A stretch of DNA of 64,000 bases. Source: Jiangella alba. Lineage in GTDB: Bacteria > Actinomycetota > Actinomycetes > Jiangellales > Jiangellaceae. Made by a program: the position numbers and the translations under genes. Positions 26,217-36,211 of this stretch are shown piece after piece (the first letter of the stretch is position 1; each line of letters begins with the position of its first letter). The stretch is taken from positions 1,915,501 through 1,979,500 of the forward strand of contig NZ_FNUC01000003.1 of the NCBI RefSeq assembly GCF_900106035.1, read 5' to 3'. Under the pieces are notes generated by a model. That model had not been told where the DNA came from and ran no database searches. It worked only from the letters and a program-made list of their open reading frames with translations.

Positions 26217-26851
26217 GGCTGCCTGACGGTGACCTGGAGTTCGTCGAGCAGGGTGAGGACGCGGCGTTCGACGTCGTCGCGGATGGGGCGGACGGCGTCG
26301 AGGCCCTGGCCGGCGGGGTCGTCGAGGGACCAGTCCTCGTAGCGCTTGCCGGGGAAGACGGGGCAGGCGTCGCCGCAGCCCATGGTGACCACGACGTCGG
26401 CGGCGCGGACCACCTCGTCGGTCCAGGGCTTGGGGTACTCGGCGGAGATGTCGATGCCGCGTTCGGCCATGGCGGCGACGGCGACGGGGTTGACCTGGTC
26501 GCCGGGTTCGGAGCCGCCGGACCACGCGATGGCGGCGTCGCCCGCGTGGTACCGGAAGAAGCCGAGCGCCATCTGCGAGCGGCCCGCGTTGTGCACGCAC
26601 AGGAACAGCACGGTGGGACGGCCGTCGTGGCTCAGGCCCTCGACGCGGGCGAGTGCGGTGAGGCGCTGGCGGGCGAAGCGTTCGGCCAGCAGGGGCAGGA
26701 AGGTGGCGACGGCGGCGCGGCCGGCGAACTGGTCGTAGGACGTGTGCAGGAACCGTTCGATCGTCTCGGCGCCGAAGGTGCCCTCGAAGTCGGCGGCCAG
26801 GCGGCTGGCGGCGGTGGCGAGGGCGACCTGCTGGTCCAGCGTGTGTGGCAT
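26213..26851 (-). CDS. arsC: Arsenate reductase, LMW-phosphatase type with N-terminal helical domain
   Basis: 212 residues. Residues 1-75 form an all-helical extension (LDQQVALATAASRLAADFEGTF, split here by description) known from actinobacterial arsenate reductases. The phosphatase-like domain has the CX5R loop VLFLCVHNAGRSQ (nucleophilic Cys near 82), a second redox Cys pair in MGCGDACPVF near 158-162, and the Asp loop DWSLDDPAGQ. It reduces arsenate to arsenite, probably with mycothiol or thioredoxin. Sits 12 bases after the ArsR-ArsC fusion and is coupled to the monooxygenase. Confidence 0.92.
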   Translation of the reverse strand: MPHTLDQQVALATAASRLAADFEGTFGAETIERFLHTSYDQFAGRAAVATFLPLLAERFARQRLTALARVEGLSHDGRPTVLFLCVHNAGRSQMALGFFRYHAGDAAIAWSGGSEPGDQVNPVAVAAMAERGIDISAEYPKPWTDEVVRAADVVVTMGCGDACPVFPGKRYEDWSLDDPAGQGLDAVRPIRDDVERRVLTLLDELQVTVRQP

Positions 26852-26863
26852 GACGGTCTCCTG

Positions 26864-27535
26864 TCAGGATGCGGCGAGTCGTGGGGCGAGGCCGCTCACG
26901 CGGCCGGCGAGTGCGGTGACGGTGGCGTCGAAGGCGTGGTCGGTGCCGGCGCGGACGGGGTCGGGGATGGACCAGTGCAGGCCGCCGCGGTCGCCGAGTT
27001 CCTCGTGCGCGTGGTCGCAGACGGTGATGACGAAGTCGTCGTCGGCGGCGACGTCGGCCAGGAGGCGGGGCCGGCGCGCGGGCAGCGGGAGGTGGTGCCG
27101 CCGGGCGGCGGCGACCGCACCCGGGTCGATCCGGTCCGCGGGATGGGTGCCGGCCGACGCGACGGGGATGCGGCTGGCCCGCCGCCAGAGCGCGGCGGCG
27201 AGCTGGGAGCGGGCGGAGTTGGCGGTGCAGACGAACACGACGCGGTGCGCCCTGCCGGCGGAGCCGGGGACGAGCCCGTCCAGCGCGCCCGGAGTGAGCC
27301 GTACGTAGCTGCGGCGGCGATCGGCCTCGGACCGGCCGCGGGTGAGCATGCCCACGGCCTCCAGAGCCTTGAGGTGGTGGGCGAGCAGGTTCGACGGCAT
27401 CGCCAGCCGGGCCTGGAGCTCGCTGGGGGCGAGGTCGCCGAGGCTGAGCAGGTCGACGATGTGCAGCCGGGACGCGTCGGCCAGCGCCGCGTGTCTGGCG
27501 GCCCGCCGCTCCAGGTCTGTTCGCTCAGCGTTCAT
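26864..27535 (-). CDS. ArsR-ArsC fusion: HTH regulator with arsenate-reductase-like domain
   Basis: 223 residues. Residues about 8-90 are an ArsR-type winged helix (HAALADASRLHIVDLL, MPSNLLAHHLKALEAVGML). Residues about 100-223 are an LMW-phosphatase/ArsC domain with CX5R in VFVCTANSARSQLAAAL, ITVCDHAHEEL and the Asp loop in WSIPDPV. The HTH part has no Cys, so sensing may lie in the reductase-like domain. ATG 27535 is preferred to an earlier GTG/ATG because it leaves 38 bases of divergent promoter before the aquaporin. Heads the minus-strand arsC operon. Confidence 0.87.
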   Translation of the reverse strand: MNAERTDLERRAARHAALADASRLHIVDLLSLGDLAPSELQARLAMPSNLLAHHLKALEAVGMLTRGRSEADRRRSYVRLTPGALDGLVPGSAGRAHRVVFVCTANSARSQLAAALWRRASRIPVASAGTHPADRIDPGAVAAARRHHLPLPARRPRLLADVAADDDFVITVCDHAHEELGDRGGLHWSIPDPVRAGTDHAFDATVTALAGRVSGLAPRLAAS

Positions 27536-27538
27536 TGC

Positions 27539-27554
27539 CTCAATCTTGACTGAG
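27539..27554. promoter_or_regulatory. Putative operator between ArsR-ArsC fusion and aquaporin
   Basis: CTCAATCTTGACTGAG, an imperfect palindrome (CTCA/TGAG ends, 12 of 16 positions symmetric), fills the short divergent gap. Typical location for an ArsR site controlling both directions. Confidence 0.35.
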
Positions 27555-27585
27555 CTATCTGGTCTCGTCAAGGATGGGGCCCGTG

Positions 27586-28266
27586 ATGACGCGACGGCTG
27601 CTGGCCGAGTTCCTCGGCACCGGCCTGCTGGTGGCCGTGGTGGTCGGCTCCGGGATCGCCGCCCAGCGGCTCTCGCCCGGCGACACGGGGCTGCAACTGC
27701 TGCAGAACAGCACCGCGACAGTGCTGGGGCTGGCGGTGCTGATCCTGCTGTTCGGGCCGGTGTCCGGGGCGCATTTCAACCCGGTGGTGTCGCTGGCTGA
27801 CTGGTGGCTGGGGCGCCGTTCGGGTGGCGGGCTGTCCGGCGGCGAGCTGGTGGCCTACGTGGTCGCGCAGTGCGCCGGGGGTGTCGGCGGGGCGCTGCTG
27901 GCCAACGTCATGTTCTCCGTCGACGCCGGGCTGGCGGCGACCGAACGCGCCGGGACCGGGCTGCTGGTCGGTGAGGTGGTGGCGACGGCCGGGCTGGTGC
28001 TGTTGATCTTCGCGCTCGTCCGAACCGGCCGGGCCGCGTTGTGCGCGCCCGCGGTCGGCGCCTACATCGGGGCGGCGTACTGGTTCACCAGCTCCACGTC
28101 GTTCGCCAACCCGGCCGTCGCCGCCGGGCGGATGTTCTCCGACACGTTCGCGGGCATCGCGCCGTCCTCGGTGCCGGCGTTCGTCGGCGCTCAGCTGGCC
28201 GGCGCCGCCGTCGGCGTCCTGCTCGTCCTCGTGTTGTATCCCGCGCCCACACCCGTTCGCATCTGA
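27586..28266 (+). CDS. Aquaporin / aquaglyceroporin (MIP family), AqpS-like
   Basis: 226 residues, six membrane segments. Two pore half-helix motifs: GAHFNPVVSLADWW near residue 64 (NPV in place of NPA) and TSFANPAVAAGRMF near 175 (NPA). MIP channels in arsenic loci let arsenite leave the cell after ArsC reduction. Start ATG 27586 gives the usual MTRRLLAEFLGTGLL; ATG 27574 is an in-frame alternative of 4 residues more. Divergent from the ArsR-ArsC operon and 11 bases before the next reductase. Confidence 0.9.
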   Translation: MTRRLLAEFLGTGLLVAVVVGSGIAAQRLSPGDTGLQLLQNSTATVLGLAVLILLFGPVSGAHFNPVVSLADWWLGRRSGGGLSGGELVAYVVAQCAGGVGGALLANVMFSVDAGLAATERAGTGLLVGEVVATAGLVLLIFALVRTGRAALCAPAVGAYIGAAYWFTSSTSFANPAVAAGRMFSDTFAGIAPSSVPAFVGAQLAGAAVGVLLVLVLYPAPTPVRI

Positions 28267-28277
28267 GAGGAACGCTC

Positions 28278-29687
28278 GTGCACATCGTCGCCGTCGGCGG
28301 CAGCGACGCCGGCATCTCCGCCGCGTTGCGCGCCCGCGAGCTGGACCCGTCGGCCGAGGTCACCGTGGTGGTGGCCGATGCCTATCCGAACTTCTCCATC
28401 TGCGGCATCCCGTACTACATCTCCGGCGAGGTCGGGCACTGGTCGAACCTGGCCCACCGCACCCACGCCGACCTCGAGGCCACCGGGATGCGGCTGCGGC
28501 TGGACACGCTCGCCACCGGCATCGACGTCGACGGGCGGCGGCTCGCGCTGCGCGAGCCGGACGGCGCGGAGACGACCCTCGAGTACGACGAGCTGGTCGT
28601 CGGCACCGGCGCGCTGCCGGTGCGCCCGCCGATCACCGGCCTGGACGAGCTGGGCGCGGCCGACGGTGTGCATGTGCTGCACTCCATGGGCGACACCTTC
28701 GCGCTGGAGCAGAGCCTGGACCGCATCCGGCCGTCCACCGCGCTGATCGTGGGCGCCGGCTACGTCGGGCTGGAGATGGCCGAGGGCCTGACCACGCGCG
28801 GGGTCGCCGTCACCCAGGTCGAGATGCTGCCCGAGGTGTTGCCCACCGTCGACCCGTCCCTCGGTGCGCTGGTGCACGCCGAGCTGGACCGGCACGGCGT
28901 CACCGTCCACACGGAGTCGACGGTCACCGCGATCTCGCGCGAGCCGTCGGGCCTGCACGTCGACGGCGCTGGTCCCGGCGGTGAACCGCTCGGCTGGGAC
29001 GTCGACCTCGTCCTCGTCGTGGTGGGGGTGCGGCCGGACACCGACCTGCTGGTCGCCGCCGGAGCACGGACCGGGCCGCGCGGCGCCGTCGTCGTCGACG
29101 AGTCCATGGCCACCGGCCTACCGCACGTCTGGGCCGCCGGCGACTGCGTCGTCACCCACCACCGTCAGCTCGGCGTCACCTACCTGCCGCTGGGCACGAC
29201 CGCGCACAAGCAGGGCCGGGTCGCCGGCGAGAACGCCCTCGGCGGCGCGGCCCGGTTCGCCGGCAGCCTCGGCACCCAAGTCGTCAAGGTCTTCGACCTG
29301 GTCGCGGCCCGCACCGGCCTGCGCGAGCACGAGGCCACCGCGGCCGGGTTCGCCCCCGCCAGCAGCACGGCCACGCCGGACGACCACAAGGCCTACTATC
29401 CGGGCGCGCAGCCCATCACCATTCGCCTCACCGGCGACGCCGGCACCGGCCTGCTGCTCGGCGCCCAGCTGGTCGGACCCCGCGGCACCGAGACCGCCAA
29501 ACGGGTCGACACCTACGCCACCGCCCTGTTCCACGCCATGACCGTCGACGGCTTCAGCGAGCTCGACCTGTCGTACACCCCGCCACTCGGCTCGCCCTGG
29601 GACGCGACGCAGCTGGCCACGCAGGCCTGGGGCCGCGAACACCTCCTGCCTGGGCAGGTGGCAGCGCTGTCGTCAGCTGAGCGGTGA
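28278..29687 (+). CDS. FAD-dependent pyridine-nucleotide disulfide reductase, CoA-disulfide-reductase-like
   Basis: 469 residues. FAD motif GGSDAGISAALRARELD at residue 8, single redox Cys at C42 in SICGIPYYISGE (the CoADR/NADH-oxidase position), NAD motif LIVGAGYVGLEMAEGL near 157, VWAAGDCVVTHH near 282, then the dimerisation domain. One active Cys rather than CxxC means a mixed-disulfide or persulfide chemistry. Encoded 11 bases after the aquaporin with a GTG start; in this setting it may regenerate thiol for ArsC or reduce an arsenic-thiol adduct, which is inference. Confidence 0.86.
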   Translation: MHIVAVGGSDAGISAALRARELDPSAEVTVVVADAYPNFSICGIPYYISGEVGHWSNLAHRTHADLEATGMRLRLDTLATGIDVDGRRLALREPDGAETTLEYDELVVGTGALPVRPPITGLDELGAADGVHVLHSMGDTFALEQSLDRIRPSTALIVGAGYVGLEMAEGLTTRGVAVTQVEMLPEVLPTVDPSLGALVHAELDRHGVTVHTESTVTAISREPSGLHVDGAGPGGEPLGWDVDLVLVVVGVRPDTDLLVAAGARTGPRGAVVVDESMATGLPHVWAAGDCVVTHHRQLGVTYLPLGTTAHKQGRVAGENALGGAARFAGSLGTQVVKVFDLVAARTGLREHEATAAGFAPASSTATPDDHKAYYPGAQPITIRLTGDAGTGLLLGAQLVGPRGTETAKRVDTYATALFHAMTVDGFSELDLSYTPPLGSPWDATQLATQAWGREHLLPGQVAALSSAER

Positions 29688-30978: not shown

Positions 30979-32152
30979 TCGTCGCCGTGCCGATCGCGAC
31001 GACGGCGGCGGCGACGGCGATGGCGGTGAGCACGGCGAACATGGCCGGGGAGGAGCCGACGGCGGCGGCGATGGCGCTGCCGGCCCAAGGGGCGACGGCC
31101 ATGGCGATGGTGGTGGGGGCGTTCAGGATGCCGTACAGGGTGCCGAAGCCGGCGATGCCCCACCGGTCGCTGACGGCGGTGGACTGCAGCAGGGTGAACG
31201 CGCCGCGCGCCACGCCGAGGACGATGCTGGCGGCGACGAGCGCGGCGGCGGGTCCGGGCAGCAGGCCGACGGCGGCGACGGTGGCCGCGACGGCGGTCAG
31301 GATGAGGACGGACCGGACGCGCGGCGTGGTGCGGCGCGACAGCGGCGCGTAACCGATGCGGCCGAGCAGCTGCCCCGCGCCGGACAGGCCGAGCGCCCAG
31401 GCGGCCAGCGTCATCGACAGGCCGCGGCCGGTGAGCAGCGGGATGAGGTGGATCGTCGCGGCGAACATCGCGAACGCGGTCAGCGCCGAGGCGATGGTGA
31501 GGCACACGAAAGGACGGCTGGTCGCGACGGCGCGGACGTGGCCGTCGCGCAGCCGGGTGTGTGCCGCGTGGTCGGCGGCCGGCCAGGGCGCGGTCAGGCC
31601 GAACGCGTGGCCCGGGATGGCGGTGGTGACCGCCAGCAGGACGGCGAGCGCGACGTAGGTCTGCCGCCAGGACAGGTGGTCGAGGAGGGCGGCGGTGGCC
31701 GGGGCGAAGATCGTGCTGGACAGGCCCGCGACCAGGGTCAGGACGGTCAGTGCGCGGACGCGGGCAGGCCCGTACCAGCGGGTGAGCGCGGTGAACGCGG
31801 GCGCGTAGAGCGTCCCGGCCTGGGCGATGCCGGCGATCACCCAGGCGGCGGCGAACCAGCCGACGCCCGGTGCGGCGGCGACGGCGAGGGTCGCGGCGAC
31901 GCCGATGACCGAGCCGAGCGTCATCACCCAGCGTGGGCCGTGCCGGTCGATGATCCGGCCGACGGCGATGCCGGCGACGGCCGCGACGAGCAGCGCCGCC
32001 GAGAACGCCGCCGTCGTCGACGACTCGGACCAGCCGGTGCCGGCGGTGATGGCCGGCAGCGCGACCGGGAACGAGTAGTAGAGGACGCCCCAGCCGACGA
32101 TCTGCGTCAGGCACAGCGCGGCCAGGGCGCCGGTCGGGTGGGCAGGTCTCAC
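30956..32152 (-). CDS. MFS transporter of the arsenic locus
   Basis: 398 residues with twelve hydrophobic segments. Major facilitator motifs: GRIIDRHGPRWVM after helix 2 (motif A) and LGRIGYAPLSRRTTPRV in the second half. GTG 32152 overlaps the ArsO stop (GTGA), so it is translated with that flavoprotein. The ArsO-MFS pair is a common arsenic arrangement; the transporter probably exports the oxidised arsenical. No GAPDH partner is present, so it is not an ArsJ system. Confidence 0.85.
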   Translation of the reverse strand: MRPAHPTGALAALCLTQIVGWGVLYYSFPVALPAITAGTGWSESSTTAAFSAALLVAAVAGIAVGRIIDRHGPRWVMTLGSVIGVAATLAVAAAPGVGWFAAAWVIAGIAQAGTLYAPAFTALTRWYGPARVRALTVLTLVAGLSSTIFAPATAALLDHLSWRQTYVALAVLLAVTTAIPGHAFGLTAPWPAADHAAHTRLRDGHVRAVATSRPFVCLTIASALTAFAMFAATIHLIPLLTGRGLSMTLAAWALGLSGAGQLLGRIGYAPLSRRTTPRVRSVLILTAVAATVAAVGLLPGPAAALVAASIVLGVARGAFTLLQSTAVSDRWGIAGFGTLYGILNAPTTIAMAVAPWAGSAIAAAVGSSPAMFAVLTAIAVAAAVVAIGTATINGAARP

Positions 32153-33228
32153 AGGCCGATGATCGCGTGTGCCCCCTGGACGTGTGCGGCCAGTGGCTGT
32201 ACGACGTGGTCGGCGTCGCGGCTGACCCCGCGCAGGGTGTTGGACGAGAACGAGCGCTGGAACTCCAGGCCCAGGTAGACGAGGCCGGGGTGCGTGGTGG
32301 AGATGCCCTCGGCGTGCCGCGGCAGGCCGTGCTCGTCCAGCGCGCCGAGCGGTGCCAGGTAGGCGAGGTCCGGCCGATAGCCGGTGGCGAAGACGACGGC
32401 GTCGACCCTCTCGCGCTCGCCGTCCGCCCAGACGACGCAGTCGCCGTCGAAGGCGGTGAACATCGCCCGGCGGTCGATGCGGCCGGACTCGATGCCCTCG
32501 CGGTAGCGGCCGGTGTCGAGCACGAGCGGCTTGCGCACGAGGTGGCGCAGCCAGGCCGCCGGCAGGTGGTCGAAGCGGGTGACCTCGAGCCAGTGGTGCA
32601 GGTCGCGGCCGCGGATCACCTGGGGGAGGAACGAGATCGGCGCGAGCGTGGCCAGCGTCAGGTCGGCGACGCCGGCGAGCTCGTCGGCGAGCTGGACGCC
32701 GGAGTTGCCGCCGCCGACCACGACGACTCGCTTGTCCGCGTACGGGGCGGGGTCGCGGTAGCCGGTGACGTGCAGCAGTTCGCCCGTGAACGTCTCCTGC
32801 CCGGGCAGGCTCGGGAGGGCGGGGTTGCCGAACGACCCCGACGCGGCCACGACGCCCGCGGCCGGGACGGCGTCGCCGCCGGCGGTGTGCACGACGAACC
32901 CGGGACCGTCGGCCTCGACACCGCTGACCCGGGTGTGGGTGCGAATGTCGACGCCGAGGTGCTGGGCGTAGCGGTCGAGGTAGCCGGCGACCTCGTCGCG
33001 GGTGGGGTAGCGGCCGGGGTCGCCGTCCATCGGGAAGCCGGGCATGGCGCTGTAGCGGGCGGGGGAGAACAGCCGCAGGCTGTCGTAGTAGCGCGGCCAG
33101 GACCCGGCCGGCCGGTCGCTCGCCTCCAGGACGACGGGCTGCAGGCCGGCGTCGCGGACGGCGCGGGCGGCGGCGAGGCCGGACTGGCCGGCGCCGATGA
33201 CGATCACGGGGTGTGTTGGGGTGGTCAC
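32149..33228 (-). CDS. arsO: Flavin-dependent monooxygenase, ArsO-like
   Basis: 359 residues. FAD motif VIVIGAGQSGLAAARAV at residue 8, NADPH motif VVVVGGGNSGVQLADEL near 170, and ATGYRPDLAYL near 295 give the FMO/ArsO two-dinucleotide fold. It likely oxidises trivalent arsenicals, in the cytoplasm, with NADPH. GTG 33228 is the start; the ArsR operator palindrome lies 8 bases upstream and is shared with the divergent arsR. Naming rests on fold and arsenic context. Confidence 0.8.
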   Translation of the reverse strand: MTTPTHPVIVIGAGQSGLAAARAVRDAGLQPVVLEASDRPAGSWPRYYDSLRLFSPARYSAMPGFPMDGDPGRYPTRDEVAGYLDRYAQHLGVDIRTHTRVSGVEADGPGFVVHTAGGDAVPAAGVVAASGSFGNPALPSLPGQETFTGELLHVTGYRDPAPYADKRVVVVGGGNSGVQLADELAGVADLTLATLAPISFLPQVIRGRDLHHWLEVTRFDHLPAAWLRHLVRKPLVLDTGRYREGIESGRIDRRAMFTAFDGDCVVWADGERERVDAVVFATGYRPDLAYLAPLGALDEHGLPRHAEGISTTHPGLVYLGLEFQRSFSSNTLRGVSRDADHVVQPLAAHVQGAHAIIGL

Positions 33229-33259: not shown

Positions 33260-33280
33260 CAAAGTGGCGATACGTTGCGT

Positions 33281-33637
33281 ATGCTCGACGGCGTGAGCGA
33301 GGTCGTCGAGGCGGGGGAGCGCAGGTCGTTGCCGCTGGTGACGGACGACCTCGTCGAGCTCGGCGACGCCACGCTCGAGTTCCTCAAGGCGCTGGCCAGC
33401 CCGGCTCGGCAGAAGATCCTGCTGCTGTTCGCCCGCGGCGCCGAACTGTCCGTGGGGCAGATCGCCGAGCTCGCCGGCATCGGCCAGTCGACCGCGTCGG
33501 AGCAGCTCAAGCTCCTGCGGCGCGGCGGCATCGTCACCTCGCGCCGCGACGGCAAGACCGTCTACTACCGCGCCGACAAGGACGGCATGGCGCGGGCGCT
33601 CGCGGACCTGCAGCACTACCTCGAGGTCTGCTGCTGA
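33281..33637 (+). CDS. arsR: ArsR-family regulator with C-terminal vicinal Cys
   Basis: 118 residues. Winged helix with FLKALASPARQKILLLF and GIGQSTASEQLKLLRRGGIV. The only cysteines are the last two residues (LEVCC), a vicinal pair apt to hold As(III) in the dimer. A GATACG box at 33269-33274 would start the transcript at about ATG 33281, so the message is probably leaderless; the open frame upstream covers the operator and is not coding. Controls arsO-MFS and itself. Confidence 0.87.
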   Translation: MLDGVSEVVEAGERRSLPLVTDDLVELGDATLEFLKALASPARQKILLLFARGAELSVGQIAELAGIGQSTASEQLKLLRRGGIVTSRRDGKTVYYRADKDGMARALADLQHYLEVCC

Positions 33638-33723
33638 CCCTCAGCGGCTGCGCCGATCAGAAATCCGCCGCCACGTCGTCAGTTCCTGGTAGCCCCCTCG
33701 CACCGGTGGAAGGATTGACGACC

Positions 33724-34719
33724 ATGACCGACGCTCGACCCCTGGGCGCTGACGAGGCCACGTTCATCGACGTGGTCCGCTCGGGCGATACGGCGCGGTT
33801 CGCGCTCATCACGGAGCGCCACCGGCGTGAGCTGCAGGTGCACTGCTACCGCATGCTCGCGAACTACGAGGACGCCCAGGACATGACGCAGGAGACGTTC
33901 CTGCGGGCGTGGAACAAGCGCGACTCGTACAAGGGCCACGCGGCGCTGCGGACCTGGCTGTACCGGATCGCGACGAACGCCTGCCTCGACTTCCTGGAGA
34001 AGCGCAACAACCGCACGCCCGTGCCGTCCGGGCTGCCGGACTCCGGCTCCGAGGTGCTGTACCTGCAGCCGTACCCCGACCGGATGCTCCCCGAGGACCC
34101 GCAGGAATCGGTGGTGGCGCGGGAGACGATCGAGCTGGCGTTCATCGTCGCCGTCCAGCACCTGCCGCCGCGGCAGCGGGCGGTGTTCATCCTGCGCGAC
34201 GTCCTCGGCTGGCCGGCGTCGAAGGCGGCCGACGCCCTCGAGCTGACCGTCGCCTCGGTGACCAGCGCACTGCAGCGGGCGCGCGTGACGATGCGCGAGC
34301 AGCTGCCCGACCGCCTCGACTGGCGCAGCCCCGAGCTGTCGAACGACGAGCGCGGCGTGGTGAAGTCGTACATCGACGCCCATGAGCGCAACGACCTCGA
34401 CGGGCTGACGTCCCTGCTGCGCGACGACCTGCGCTTCGCGATGCTGCCCGATCCGGGCACCGTGACCACGACGGCCGAGGACGCGGTGGACGGCTGGGTC
34501 TCCGGTGGGCTCTTCGGGCCGGGCCACGACGACTGGCGCGGCATCGCCACGACGGTCAACCGCATGCCGGCCGCCGCGCTGTACCTGCGCACCCCCGGCG
34601 ACCCGGAGTACCGGCTGTTCGCCATCGCGGCCCTGCACATCGCCGACGGCAAGATCGCCGAGCTCACCGGATTCGACGCCGCCGACAAGCCCTGGCTGGA
34701 CCTGCCGCCGACACTGTGA
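33724..34719 (+). CDS. ECF-type sigma factor with SnoaL-like C-terminal domain
   Basis: 331 residues. Region 2 (about 20-95) with YEDAQDMTQETFLRAWNK; region 4 (about 140-195) with LPPRQRAVFILRDVLGWP as the conserved helix and SVTSALQRARVTMR for -35 recognition. Residues about 210-331 form a SnoaL-like fold (VKSYIDAHERNDLDGLTSLL, LPPTL end), as in SigX5/SigJ-type sigma factors where this domain replaces a separate anti-sigma as activity switch. No anti-sigma gene is adjacent. AAGGA about 11 bases before ATG 33724. Its regulon is not evident. Confidence 0.9.
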   Translation: MTDARPLGADEATFIDVVRSGDTARFALITERHRRELQVHCYRMLANYEDAQDMTQETFLRAWNKRDSYKGHAALRTWLYRIATNACLDFLEKRNNRTPVPSGLPDSGSEVLYLQPYPDRMLPEDPQESVVARETIELAFIVAVQHLPPRQRAVFILRDVLGWPASKAADALELTVASVTSALQRARVTMREQLPDRLDWRSPELSNDERGVVKSYIDAHERNDLDGLTSLLRDDLRFAMLPDPGTVTTTAEDAVDGWVSGGLFGPGHDDWRGIATTVNRMPAAALYLRTPGDPEYRLFAIAALHIADGKIAELTGFDAADKPWLDLPPTL

Positions 34720-34782
34720 CCACACCGGTCACCGCGCCCGGGGCAGGTCCCTGGCTTCACGAGCCGATCGCCAGGCCCGTGC

Positions 34783-35373
34783 TCATCGCCTCGTCTCGTA
34801 TCGGGTCAGCACCACGCCGCCGGAGAACGTCCGGTTCTCCACCAGGGTCAGCTTCACCCAGCTGTCCAGCGCGGTGAAGAACGGCGTGCCGCCGCCGACC
34901 AGGACCGGATGGGTGACGATCGCGTACTCGTCGATCAGCCCGGCCCGCATGGCCGCACCGGCGAGCGTGGCGCCGACGATGTCCATGGGGCCGCCGTCCT
35001 CGGCCTTGAGCCGGGCGATCTCGGTGACCGCGTCGCCGGTGACCAGGCGGGCGTTCCAGGCGACCTCGTCGATGGTCGAGGAGAACACCACCTTCGGCAT
35101 ATCCCGCCAGCGGCGGGCGAACTCGATCTCCGCCGGTGTGGCGCCGGGCTGCTGGTCGGCGGTCGGCCAGTGGGGACTCATCGCCTCCCACAGCTTGCGC
35201 CCGTACAGCGCCAGGCTCGTCGCCGCCACCCGGTCGGACCACCACTGGAACAGCTCGTCGCTCGCCGACGAGTCCGGTCCCTCACCCTCACCCCCGCTCC
35301 AGCCCAGGTCGTCGCCGGGCGCGGCGACGTAGCCGTCCAGGGTCACGTTCATGGCAAAGGTCAGTTTCCGCAT
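34783..35373 (-). CDS. RibD C-terminal / dihydrofolate-reductase-like protein
   Basis: 196 residues. Begins MRKLTFAMNVTLDGYVAAPG, the typical start of the stand-alone RibD_C family, followed by ALYGRKLWEAM, PKVVFSSTI and IDEYAIVTHPVLVGGGTPFF, the NADPH-binding and closing strands. Catalytic function in such proteins is generally unknown; they are NADPH reductases by fold. AGGAGG lies 8 bases before the ATG, next to a small palindrome. It stands alone between the sigma factor and an ArsR gene. Confidence 0.85.
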   Translation of the reverse strand: MRKLTFAMNVTLDGYVAAPGDDLGWSGGEGEGPDSSASDELFQWWSDRVAATSLALYGRKLWEAMSPHWPTADQQPGATPAEIEFARRWRDMPKVVFSSTIDEVAWNARLVTGDAVTEIARLKAEDGGPMDIVGATLAGAAMRAGLIDEYAIVTHPVLVGGGTPFFTALDSWVKLTLVENRTFSGGVVLTRYETRR

Positions 35374-35443: not shown

Positions 35444-35809
35444 TCACCGACCCAGCGCCAGGGCGTCGCGGATGGCGGTCAGACGCTCGGGGATGACGCG
35501 GTAGTAGACCCAGGTGCCGCGGCGGTCGCCGGTGATCAGCCCGGCGTCGCGCAGCAGTTTCAGGTGGTGGCTGGTCGTGGCGGCCGTCTTGCCGATGCTG
35601 GCCGAGAAGTCGCAGGCGCACACCTCGTCGGCGTTGAGCAGCATCGACAGGATCTTCACCCGTGCGGGGTCGGCCAGCGCCTTGAACGCGCCCGCGAGCA
35701 GCGACGCGTCGTCGTCGCTCATGGCCGAGCTCGGGGTGCAGCAGTCGTTGAGCACCGGCAGCGCGCGGGTGCTCGCCGGTGCGGCGGGGGTGATGGTCGG
35801 TGTGGTCAT
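35444..35809 (-). CDS. ArsR/SmtB-family metalloid regulator
   Basis: 121 residues. Winged helix AFKALADPARVKILSML and KTAATTSHHLKLLRDAGLI. Cys are arranged as C23-C24 near the N-terminus (LNDCCTPS) and C64/C66 in DEVCACDF, the classic helix-3 sensing motif for As(III)/Cd(II)/Pb(II). It diverges from the two Cys-rich small proteins at 35885 and 36117, with an AATCA-A-TGATT palindrome in the gap, so it probably represses them and itself. Confidence 0.9.
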   Translation of the reverse strand: MTTPTITPAAPASTRALPVLNDCCTPSSAMSDDDASLLAGAFKALADPARVKILSMLLNADEVCACDFSASIGKTAATTSHHLKLLRDAGLITGDRRGTWVYYRVIPERLTAIRDALALGR

Positions 35810-35846
35810 CGTCGCTCCAGACTACCCGCTGTTTCCATATTCTTCG

Positions 35847-35857
35847 AATCAATGATT
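35847..35857. promoter_or_regulatory. Putative ArsR operator before the Cys-rich small proteins
   Basis: AATCA-A-TGATT perfect palindrome in an unusually AT-rich 75-base divergent gap, 27 bases before the first small gene. Confidence 0.4.
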
Positions 35858-35884
35858 AGATGAACATCGAAACAAGGAGGCGTC

Positions 35885-36079
35885 ATGGATCCGTACCTGC
35901 CCGAGACGATGGCCGCCGAGCGCCGGCGCGACCTGCTCGCCGAGGCCGCTCGCCGGCGGCTCGTCGCGGTGGCGACGTGCTGCCGCGGCAGCGCCCTGGG
36001 CCGCTCGGTGTCGCGGGTGCGCGACGCGTGGGCCGCGCGGTCCGCTCGTCGCGGCGCCGCCTGCTGCGCGACGGCCTGA
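35885..36079 (+). CDS. Small Arg-rich protein with two Cys pairs
   Basis: 64 residues, no family recognised. Starts MDPYLPETMAAERRRDLL and carries vicinal pairs at C32-C33 (VATCCRG) and C60-C61 (GAACCATA). It is Arg-rich and probably helical at the N-terminus (residues 9-27). AAGGAGG lies 4 bases before ATG 35885, a near-perfect ribosome site, which makes translation likely. Divergent from the ArsR gene and 37 bases before the 17-residue gene, so it is likely induced by the same metalloid and may bind As(III) or assist the regulator. Function is inference from Cys content and location. Confidence 0.65.
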   Translation: MDPYLPETMAAERRRDLLAEAARRRLVAVATCCRGSALGRSVSRVRDAWAARSARRGAACCATA

Positions 36080-36116
36080 CCACCTGTCAACGAGCGCGCG
36101 AGGGGAGGTGACAACG

Positions 36117-36170
36117 ATGGACTGCTGCGACGACCAGACCGTGGACTGCTGCGACTCCGGCTGTTGCTGA
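36117..36170 (+). CDS. 17-residue microprotein with three Cys-Cys pairs
   Basis: The whole product is MDCCDDQTVDCCDSGCC: 17 residues, six Cys in three vicinal pairs at 3-4, 11-12 and 16-17, with six acidic or polar Asp/Gln neighbours and no Lys or Arg. GGAGGTGA at 36104-36111, complementary to the 16S tail over eight bases, stands 5 bases before the ATG, and a hairpin terminator follows 12 bases after the stop. It lies downstream of the 64-residue Cys-pair protein in an ArsR-divergent unit. A soft-metal or arsenite chelator, like a minimal metallothionein, is the natural reading; no known family is recognised. Confidence 0.65.
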   Translation: MDCCDDQTVDCCDSGCC

Positions 36171-36182
36171 ACCGCGGACGAG

Positions 36183-36211
36183 TCAGGCGGCGCGCCGGGC
36201 GCGCCGCCTGA
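36183..36211 (+). terminator. Hairpin terminator after the microprotein
   Basis: TCAGGCGGCGC (36183-36193) pairs over 11 bases with GCGCCGCCTGA (36201-36211), loop of 7. No T-run follows, as is common in GC-rich actinobacteria. Confidence 0.7.

Follow-up and report, generated by a model that had tools for sequence, protein, structure and literature searches.

In the cyanobacterial SmtB/SmtA system, a repressor of the ArsR family is encoded divergently from a metallothionein. Metallothioneins are near 25 residues long in fungi and above 50 in bacteria, and if the 17-residue peptide described here, cc17, is one, it would be shorter than any that we know of. The tetracysteine (FlAsH) tag, in which two CC pairs stand a few residues apart, can hold arsenic. 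As for ArsR-family sensors, the As(III) site of CgArsR is composed of Cys15, Cys16 and Cys55 and the ligands of CadC are Cys7, 11, 58 and 60 according to excerpts of one paper (PMC4287715), and As(Cys)3 units are described for CgArsR and AfArsR structures in excerpts of another (PMC11590777). Finally, polycysteine sORFs have been reported from mycobacteria, and these are leaderless judging from the title of the original work (Canestrari 2020, cited in PMC9094748).

The locus that we compare with these systems lies in a 64,000-nucleotide stretch of the genome of Jiangella alba, a soil bacterium (contig NZ_FNUC01000003.1, positions 1,915,501 to 1,979,500), which was analysed as a whole and is referred to as the window. 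It has the following features.

35444-35809, minus strand: ArsR1, a divergent ArsR/SmtB-family regulator (HTH_5, PF01022, E 2.3e-13; NF033788 over its cut-off).
35844-35874, no strand: operator-like block TCGAATCANTGNTTAGATRAACRTCGAAACA, conserved in the alignment of the ArsR1-cc64 intergenic region, a putative site of ArsR binding.
35885-36079, plus strand: cc64, an Arg-rich protein of 64 residues whose CC pairs are at 32-33 and 60-61, encoded upstream of cc17 on the same strand.
36104-36116, plus strand: the ribosome site of cc17, GGAGGTGA, with its spacer, a strong site.
36117-36170 including the stop, plus strand: cc17, a 17-residue, six-Cys peptide, MDCCDDQTVDCCDSGCC, by direct reading.
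36184-36210, plus strand: a GC-rich hairpin 3' of cc17, identified by its fold relative to shuffles, a putative terminator without a T run.

A previous sequence-only reading of the window had pointed out the 17-residue peptide with its three vicinal Cys pairs, a good ribosome site in front of it, a 64-residue protein with two CC pairs just upstream, and an ArsR whose metal-binding region contains CAC, all of which were borne out. The ribosome site, presumably a perfect match to the anti-SD of the ribosome, places GGAGG 8 nt from the ATG by direct reading. Just as in SmtB/SmtA, an ArsR/SmtB-family regulator is divergent from a small Cys-rich protein that is presumably its target. The unit differs from that system by 1) a second CC protein, 2) arsenic-type surroundings, and 3) sensor cysteines resembling those of CgArsR and CadC, and cc17 itself differs from SmtA, since it has 17 residues, no His and no match to the Metallothio_Pro model. 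When compared to the FlAsH tag, cc17 is a natural peptide, with a three-residue spacer (CCDSGCC) and a third CC pair.

The same reading had seen no likeness between cc17 and known metallothioneins. In profile searches with an in-frame extension of cc17 to 20 residues, there was no match to Pfam models, PF02069 (Metallothio_Pro, SmtA/BmtA) included, or to NCBIfam models, and no protein in 22 genomes of the family exceeded the PF02069 cut-off. One family member without the unit has a weak, sub-cut-off match to the bacterial metallothionein model (G018:C6:1358-1450, L112). No such peptide is described in the titles and abstract openings of the literature searched, in which few subscription papers are represented. 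By analogy, cc17 may be SmtA-like in its working, outside the SmtA family by profile and with no detectable homology to it.

We searched 60 genomes with ArsR1 and found 14 places with at least 71% identity, in 13 genomes, the window included. In all 14 loci, from whose counts an overlapping frame of L005 was excluded, cc17 is present and stands beside the divergent ArsR, and hence the check proposed for relatives, whether a CC-pair peptide led by a ribosome site is conserved at this place, had a positive outcome. The GGAGG core is kept in 13 of the 14 loci, with GGGGGTGA replacing it in the alignment of L002. Mean nucleotide identity over the 14 loci is 86% in the cc17 ORF, 31% in the 54 nt after the stop, and 37% in the 16 nt that precede the ribosome site. 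C3, C4, C16 and C17 are invariant in every locus, with TGC/TGT switches, and the middle CC pair is complete in 11/14, one of its Cys being lost in the other three. With a cc17 profile, 13/22 family genomes match strongly (E up to 3e-5), the carriers being 11 of the 12 Jiangella genomes and two of the five genomes of a sister genus.

Since the ORF is very short, it might have arisen by chance within a non-coding element that is itself conserved. Only 10 of its 24 variable columns are third positions, and pN/pS (0.43 in the reading frame, 1.30 and 0.77 in the two alternatives) is based on few sites with no significance test (one inserted codon of L002 was excluded from both analyses). However, the in-frame pN/pS is the lowest of the three, the amino-acid pattern and the Cys codons are kept with synonymous switches, and the ribosome site is kept between unconserved flanks, so that we find a chance origin highly improbable. 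When we counted ATG ORFs of 12-40 aa with at least three CC pairs in 355,202 bases (the window and 15 Jiangellaceae stretches), there were 11, all cc17 orthologues, whereas none with three CC pairs appeared among the 7,099 ORFs of 12-40 aa in 1.92 Mb of DNA simulated from the window with a second-order Markov model. On this comparative sequence evidence, cc17 is a conserved gene.

cc64 is found alongside cc17 in 14/14 loci. Its C60-C61 pair is invariant in all of them, and C32-C33 in 12. It has no match in Pfam and a single, below-cut-off match in NCBIfam, and its predicted structure, of modest confidence (mean pLDDT 74.8, pTM 0.37), consists of two helices and is uninformative about a site. 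Among 393 genomes of the class, cc64 was detected in the 13 carriers and in one relative outside the family, G041, where its relative (E 4.2e-4; L059 1498-1647; L076) comes directly after CadI, beside ArsR, aquaporin-like and ArsC-like genes. These neighbours tie cc64 to an arsenic-type locus outside the family too. Scanning a collection of 84,980 species with one conserved stretch of cc64 yielded six loci in five species, all Jiangella, and a scan of plasmids was empty. Genome G005 has a second, partial cc64-like match (G005:C55:7892-8026; L061/L077) beside a fragment, PILSMLLNA, that looks like part of ArsR1; this may be what is left of a second copy of the unit.

The claim that cc17 has its own terminator stood in part. 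The hairpin is present, and the 70 nt 3' of the cc17 stop in the window fold at -38.6 kcal/mol, against -29.8 ± 3.5 in mononucleotide shuffles. However, the T run is absent, and while the fold is more than 1 SD stronger than shuffles in 10/14 loci, it is not in L002, L004, L007 and L008. The window contains no Rfam match at the gathering threshold. A short Cys-rich ORF followed by a hairpin could also encode a cysteine-sensing leader peptide that attenuates a downstream gene, on the model of the mycobacterial polycysteine sORFs, which share with cc17 that they are short, Cys-rich and actinobacterial. In contrast to them, cc17 is SD-led, is the second ORF of its unit, and has no shared downstream gene. 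The genes that follow it are mostly not common between loci, and simple ORF calling shows the next gene to be convergent in 6/14, which disfavours a leader peptide to the point that we give it very little credence.

ArsR1 is divergent from cc64-cc17 in 14/14 loci. It scores 96.3 bits with the Rv2640c-family model NF041413, below the 155-bit cut-off. Its Cys 23, 24, 64 and 66 are invariant in the 13 sequences aligned (13/13). In an alignment with CgArsR from Corynebacterium glutamicum (6J0E), the N-terminal CC of the two proteins coincide, Cys 64/66 being present as well, and ArsR1 differs from this protein by its extra CxC and by facing two small Cys proteins. A CxC is also found in the Cd/Pb sensor CadC, and the N-terminal Cys pair of ArsR1 is adjacent.

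Since ArsR1 has four thiols, Cd/Pb is possible as inducer. It could then be a CadC-like sensor, with cc17 and cc64 sequestering Cd(II)/Pb(II), or zinc, as a micro-metallothionein. The invariance of the four candidate thiols and the four-cysteine ligand set of CadC count for this. So do the CadI-adjacent ArsRs, of which, among ten aligned, nine have an N-terminal CC motif and eight CxCD, and the name of CadI, which comes from cadmium induction. Nevertheless, the N-terminal pair of ArsR1 is a CC as in CgArsR and lacks the Cys7/Cys11 spacing of CadC, and the unit is flanked by arsenic-type genes in all Jiangella loci (see below). We consider a Cd/Pb system unlikely and prefer arsenite as the ligand.

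The operator-like block next to ArsR1, TCGAATCANTGNTTAGATRAACRTCGAAACA, was the single hit when the 7.68-Mb genome was scanned with a tolerance of 3 mismatches (none for the control), and because there is no second site, ArsR1 may control the cc64-cc17 unit alone. In the alignment, inspected by eye, TTGANA stands 17 nt before TAGATG-like letters in 12/14 loci, five of which have the exact TTGACA; the TTGANA part of this promoter-like pair is absent from the window itself and from L004. The arrangement suggests that the ArsR, the 64-mer and the 17-mer form a unit behind the operator-like block, which ArsR1 presumably represses.

The arsenic-type genes of the window stand on the ArsR1 side of the unit.

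26228-26848 (aligned range), minus strand: arsenate-reductase-like protein with an N-terminal three-helix domain (in the relative L070, reductase models below cut-off and N-terminal domain over).
26867-27553 (aligned range), minus strand: ArsR-ArsC-like fusion, named by eye from the relative L070.
27580-28194 (aligned range), plus strand: aquaporin/MIP-like channel (relative L063, below cut-off).
28278-29660 (aligned range), plus strand: CoA-disulfide-reductase-like flavoprotein (relative L070, below cut-off).
31037-32164 (aligned range), minus strand: ArsK-like MFS transporter (relative L070, 152.4 bits, cut-off 400).
32149-33228, minus strand: ArsO-like flavin monooxygenase (246.8 bits, cut-off 425).
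33275-33637 (open ORF from 33197), plus strand: ArsR2, a second ArsR/SmtB-family regulator, with a C-terminal CC.

The names ArsO, ArsK, ArsC, aquaporin and CoA-disulfide reductase correspond to model scores below the cut-offs. Between ArsR2 and ArsR1 (33700-35373), the window holds an ORF that looks sigma-70-type by eye and a RibD_C-domain protein; the distance between the two regulators is shorter in the nine other loci that have both.

Each of the 12 Jiangella loci (11 genomes) has arsenic-type genes no more than 10 kb from the unit, L067 with ArsC only, a count obtained with queries taken mostly from these same loci and without a random-stretch baseline. This strengthens the link of cc17 to arsenic that the sequence-only reading had drawn from the ArsR. 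Within 10 kb of the two sister-genus loci, no arsenic-type query matched. Acr3 is absent from the 12 Jiangella genomes (0/12) and present in 5/22 family genomes, including both sister-genus carriers of cc17. Since these carriers have Acr3 and no arsenic-type neighbours, cc17 is not simply a pump substitute. No ArsB was over cut-off in the 22 family genomes. The genome of the window has two sub-cut-off matches to the ArsB model (112 and 100 bits, cut-off 415), at G000:C4:3540811-3542067 (L111) and G000:C3:2360075-2361277, which leave room for an ArsB-like pump.

CadI/ArsI (NF041414) was detected in 152 of 393 class genomes and in none of the 20 Jiangellaceae listed. We examined 17 loci from 31 more distant ArsR hits (leaving out the other 14), 16 of them outside the family, and found CadI divergent beside ArsR in nine. 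In these nine, the place beside a related ArsR is occupied by CadI/ArsI, which again favours the arsenic link. In 48 ArsR/CadI loci scanned, no cc17 relative was found (best E 3.2), and neither cc17 nor cc64 matches NF041414.

The CadI tails were read in 30 of these 48 loci, the 18 without CadI by pattern being left out. At least two Cys are found in 27 tails, 14 tails end in CC, and one of the three with fewer than two Cys is cut by a contig end. An acidic C-terminal tail that carries CC pairs is common among actinobacterial CadI/ArsI (L079-L108, L014-L030 and L059).

Like such a tail, cc17 is acidic, has CC pairs and stands beside a divergent ArsR, as CadI often does beside a related one. 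In contrast, cc17 is free-standing and has no enzyme domain, and at such a length homology is beyond demonstration. We infer that the cc64-cc17 unit may have replaced CadI beside ArsR. Conversely, the likeness gives a testable idea of the role of the CC tails in CadI. The resemblance would equally suit an arsenite chaperone, in which case cc17 would not be a sink but would pass its As(III) on, with the ArsK-like carrier, ArsR or cc64 (its companion in 14/14 loci) as the recipient, much as the CC tail may serve CadI. However, the two sister-genus loci have no nearby ArsK- or ArsO-like match, and we regard such a delivery role as rather improbable.

The reading that we favour, with a probability of roughly 60%, is that cc64-cc17 is an ArsR-controlled, arsenite-buffering micro-metallothionein system, which by analogy is SmtB/SmtA-like in layout. 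ArsR1 would repress the divergent two-gene unit until its cysteines bind arsenite, or another soft metal, upon which repression would be lifted and the unit transcribed. Good ribosome sites would then ensure that the acidic cc17, with three CC pairs, and the helical cc64, with two, are made. With three thiols per As(III), cc17 could bind at most two As(III) through its six thiols, and the peptide would thereby buffer the arsenite coming from ArsC-type reductases until its exit via the ArsK-like carrier or the aquaporin. Expression of the peptide, As(III) as its ligand and sequestration as its function are what this scheme predicts.

More tentatively, the effector of an ArsR circuit in Jiangella and its relatives might be an arsenite-binding peptide that is encoded by a gene and has the size of a phytochelatin. 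It would represent a class of ultra-small metallothioneins that gene callers miss and that replaces CadI/ArsI beside such an ArsR, in Jiangella in genomes without Acr3, CadI and over-cut-off ArsB. If this is true, cc17 is a natural, regulated arsenite-binding peptide that would be useful for arsenic sensing and capture, and metal-resistance operons can hide effectors below annotation length.

How widespread might such peptides be? Among the 393 class genomes, 13 matched a profile of cc17 at E up to 0.05, all of them Jiangellaceae. Among 396 genomes drawn from the phylum, this profile gave the window's own match and a weak one in G750 (E 0.015), which was rejected as chance because it lies inside a 368-residue open frame, with another gene on the opposite strand by eye. 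The sole Jiangella genome of the 12 without an ArsR1 hit, G002, also has no cc64 hit. It has a weak peptide match (E 0.095; L044, G002:C435:64699-64746; L075), DCRDDLSTDCCDTGSC, which follows a GTG and keeps four of the six Cys. From its sequence, this is a probable cc17 remnant with GTG replacing ATG, and the unit may have been lost as a whole in G002; since the assembly is in 440 pieces, a copy of the unit may also have been missed. In J. anatolica, a single contig carries the unit twice, with some 21 kb between the copies (L063 and L067), and an ArsC-like gene stands roughly 0.85 kb from one of them.
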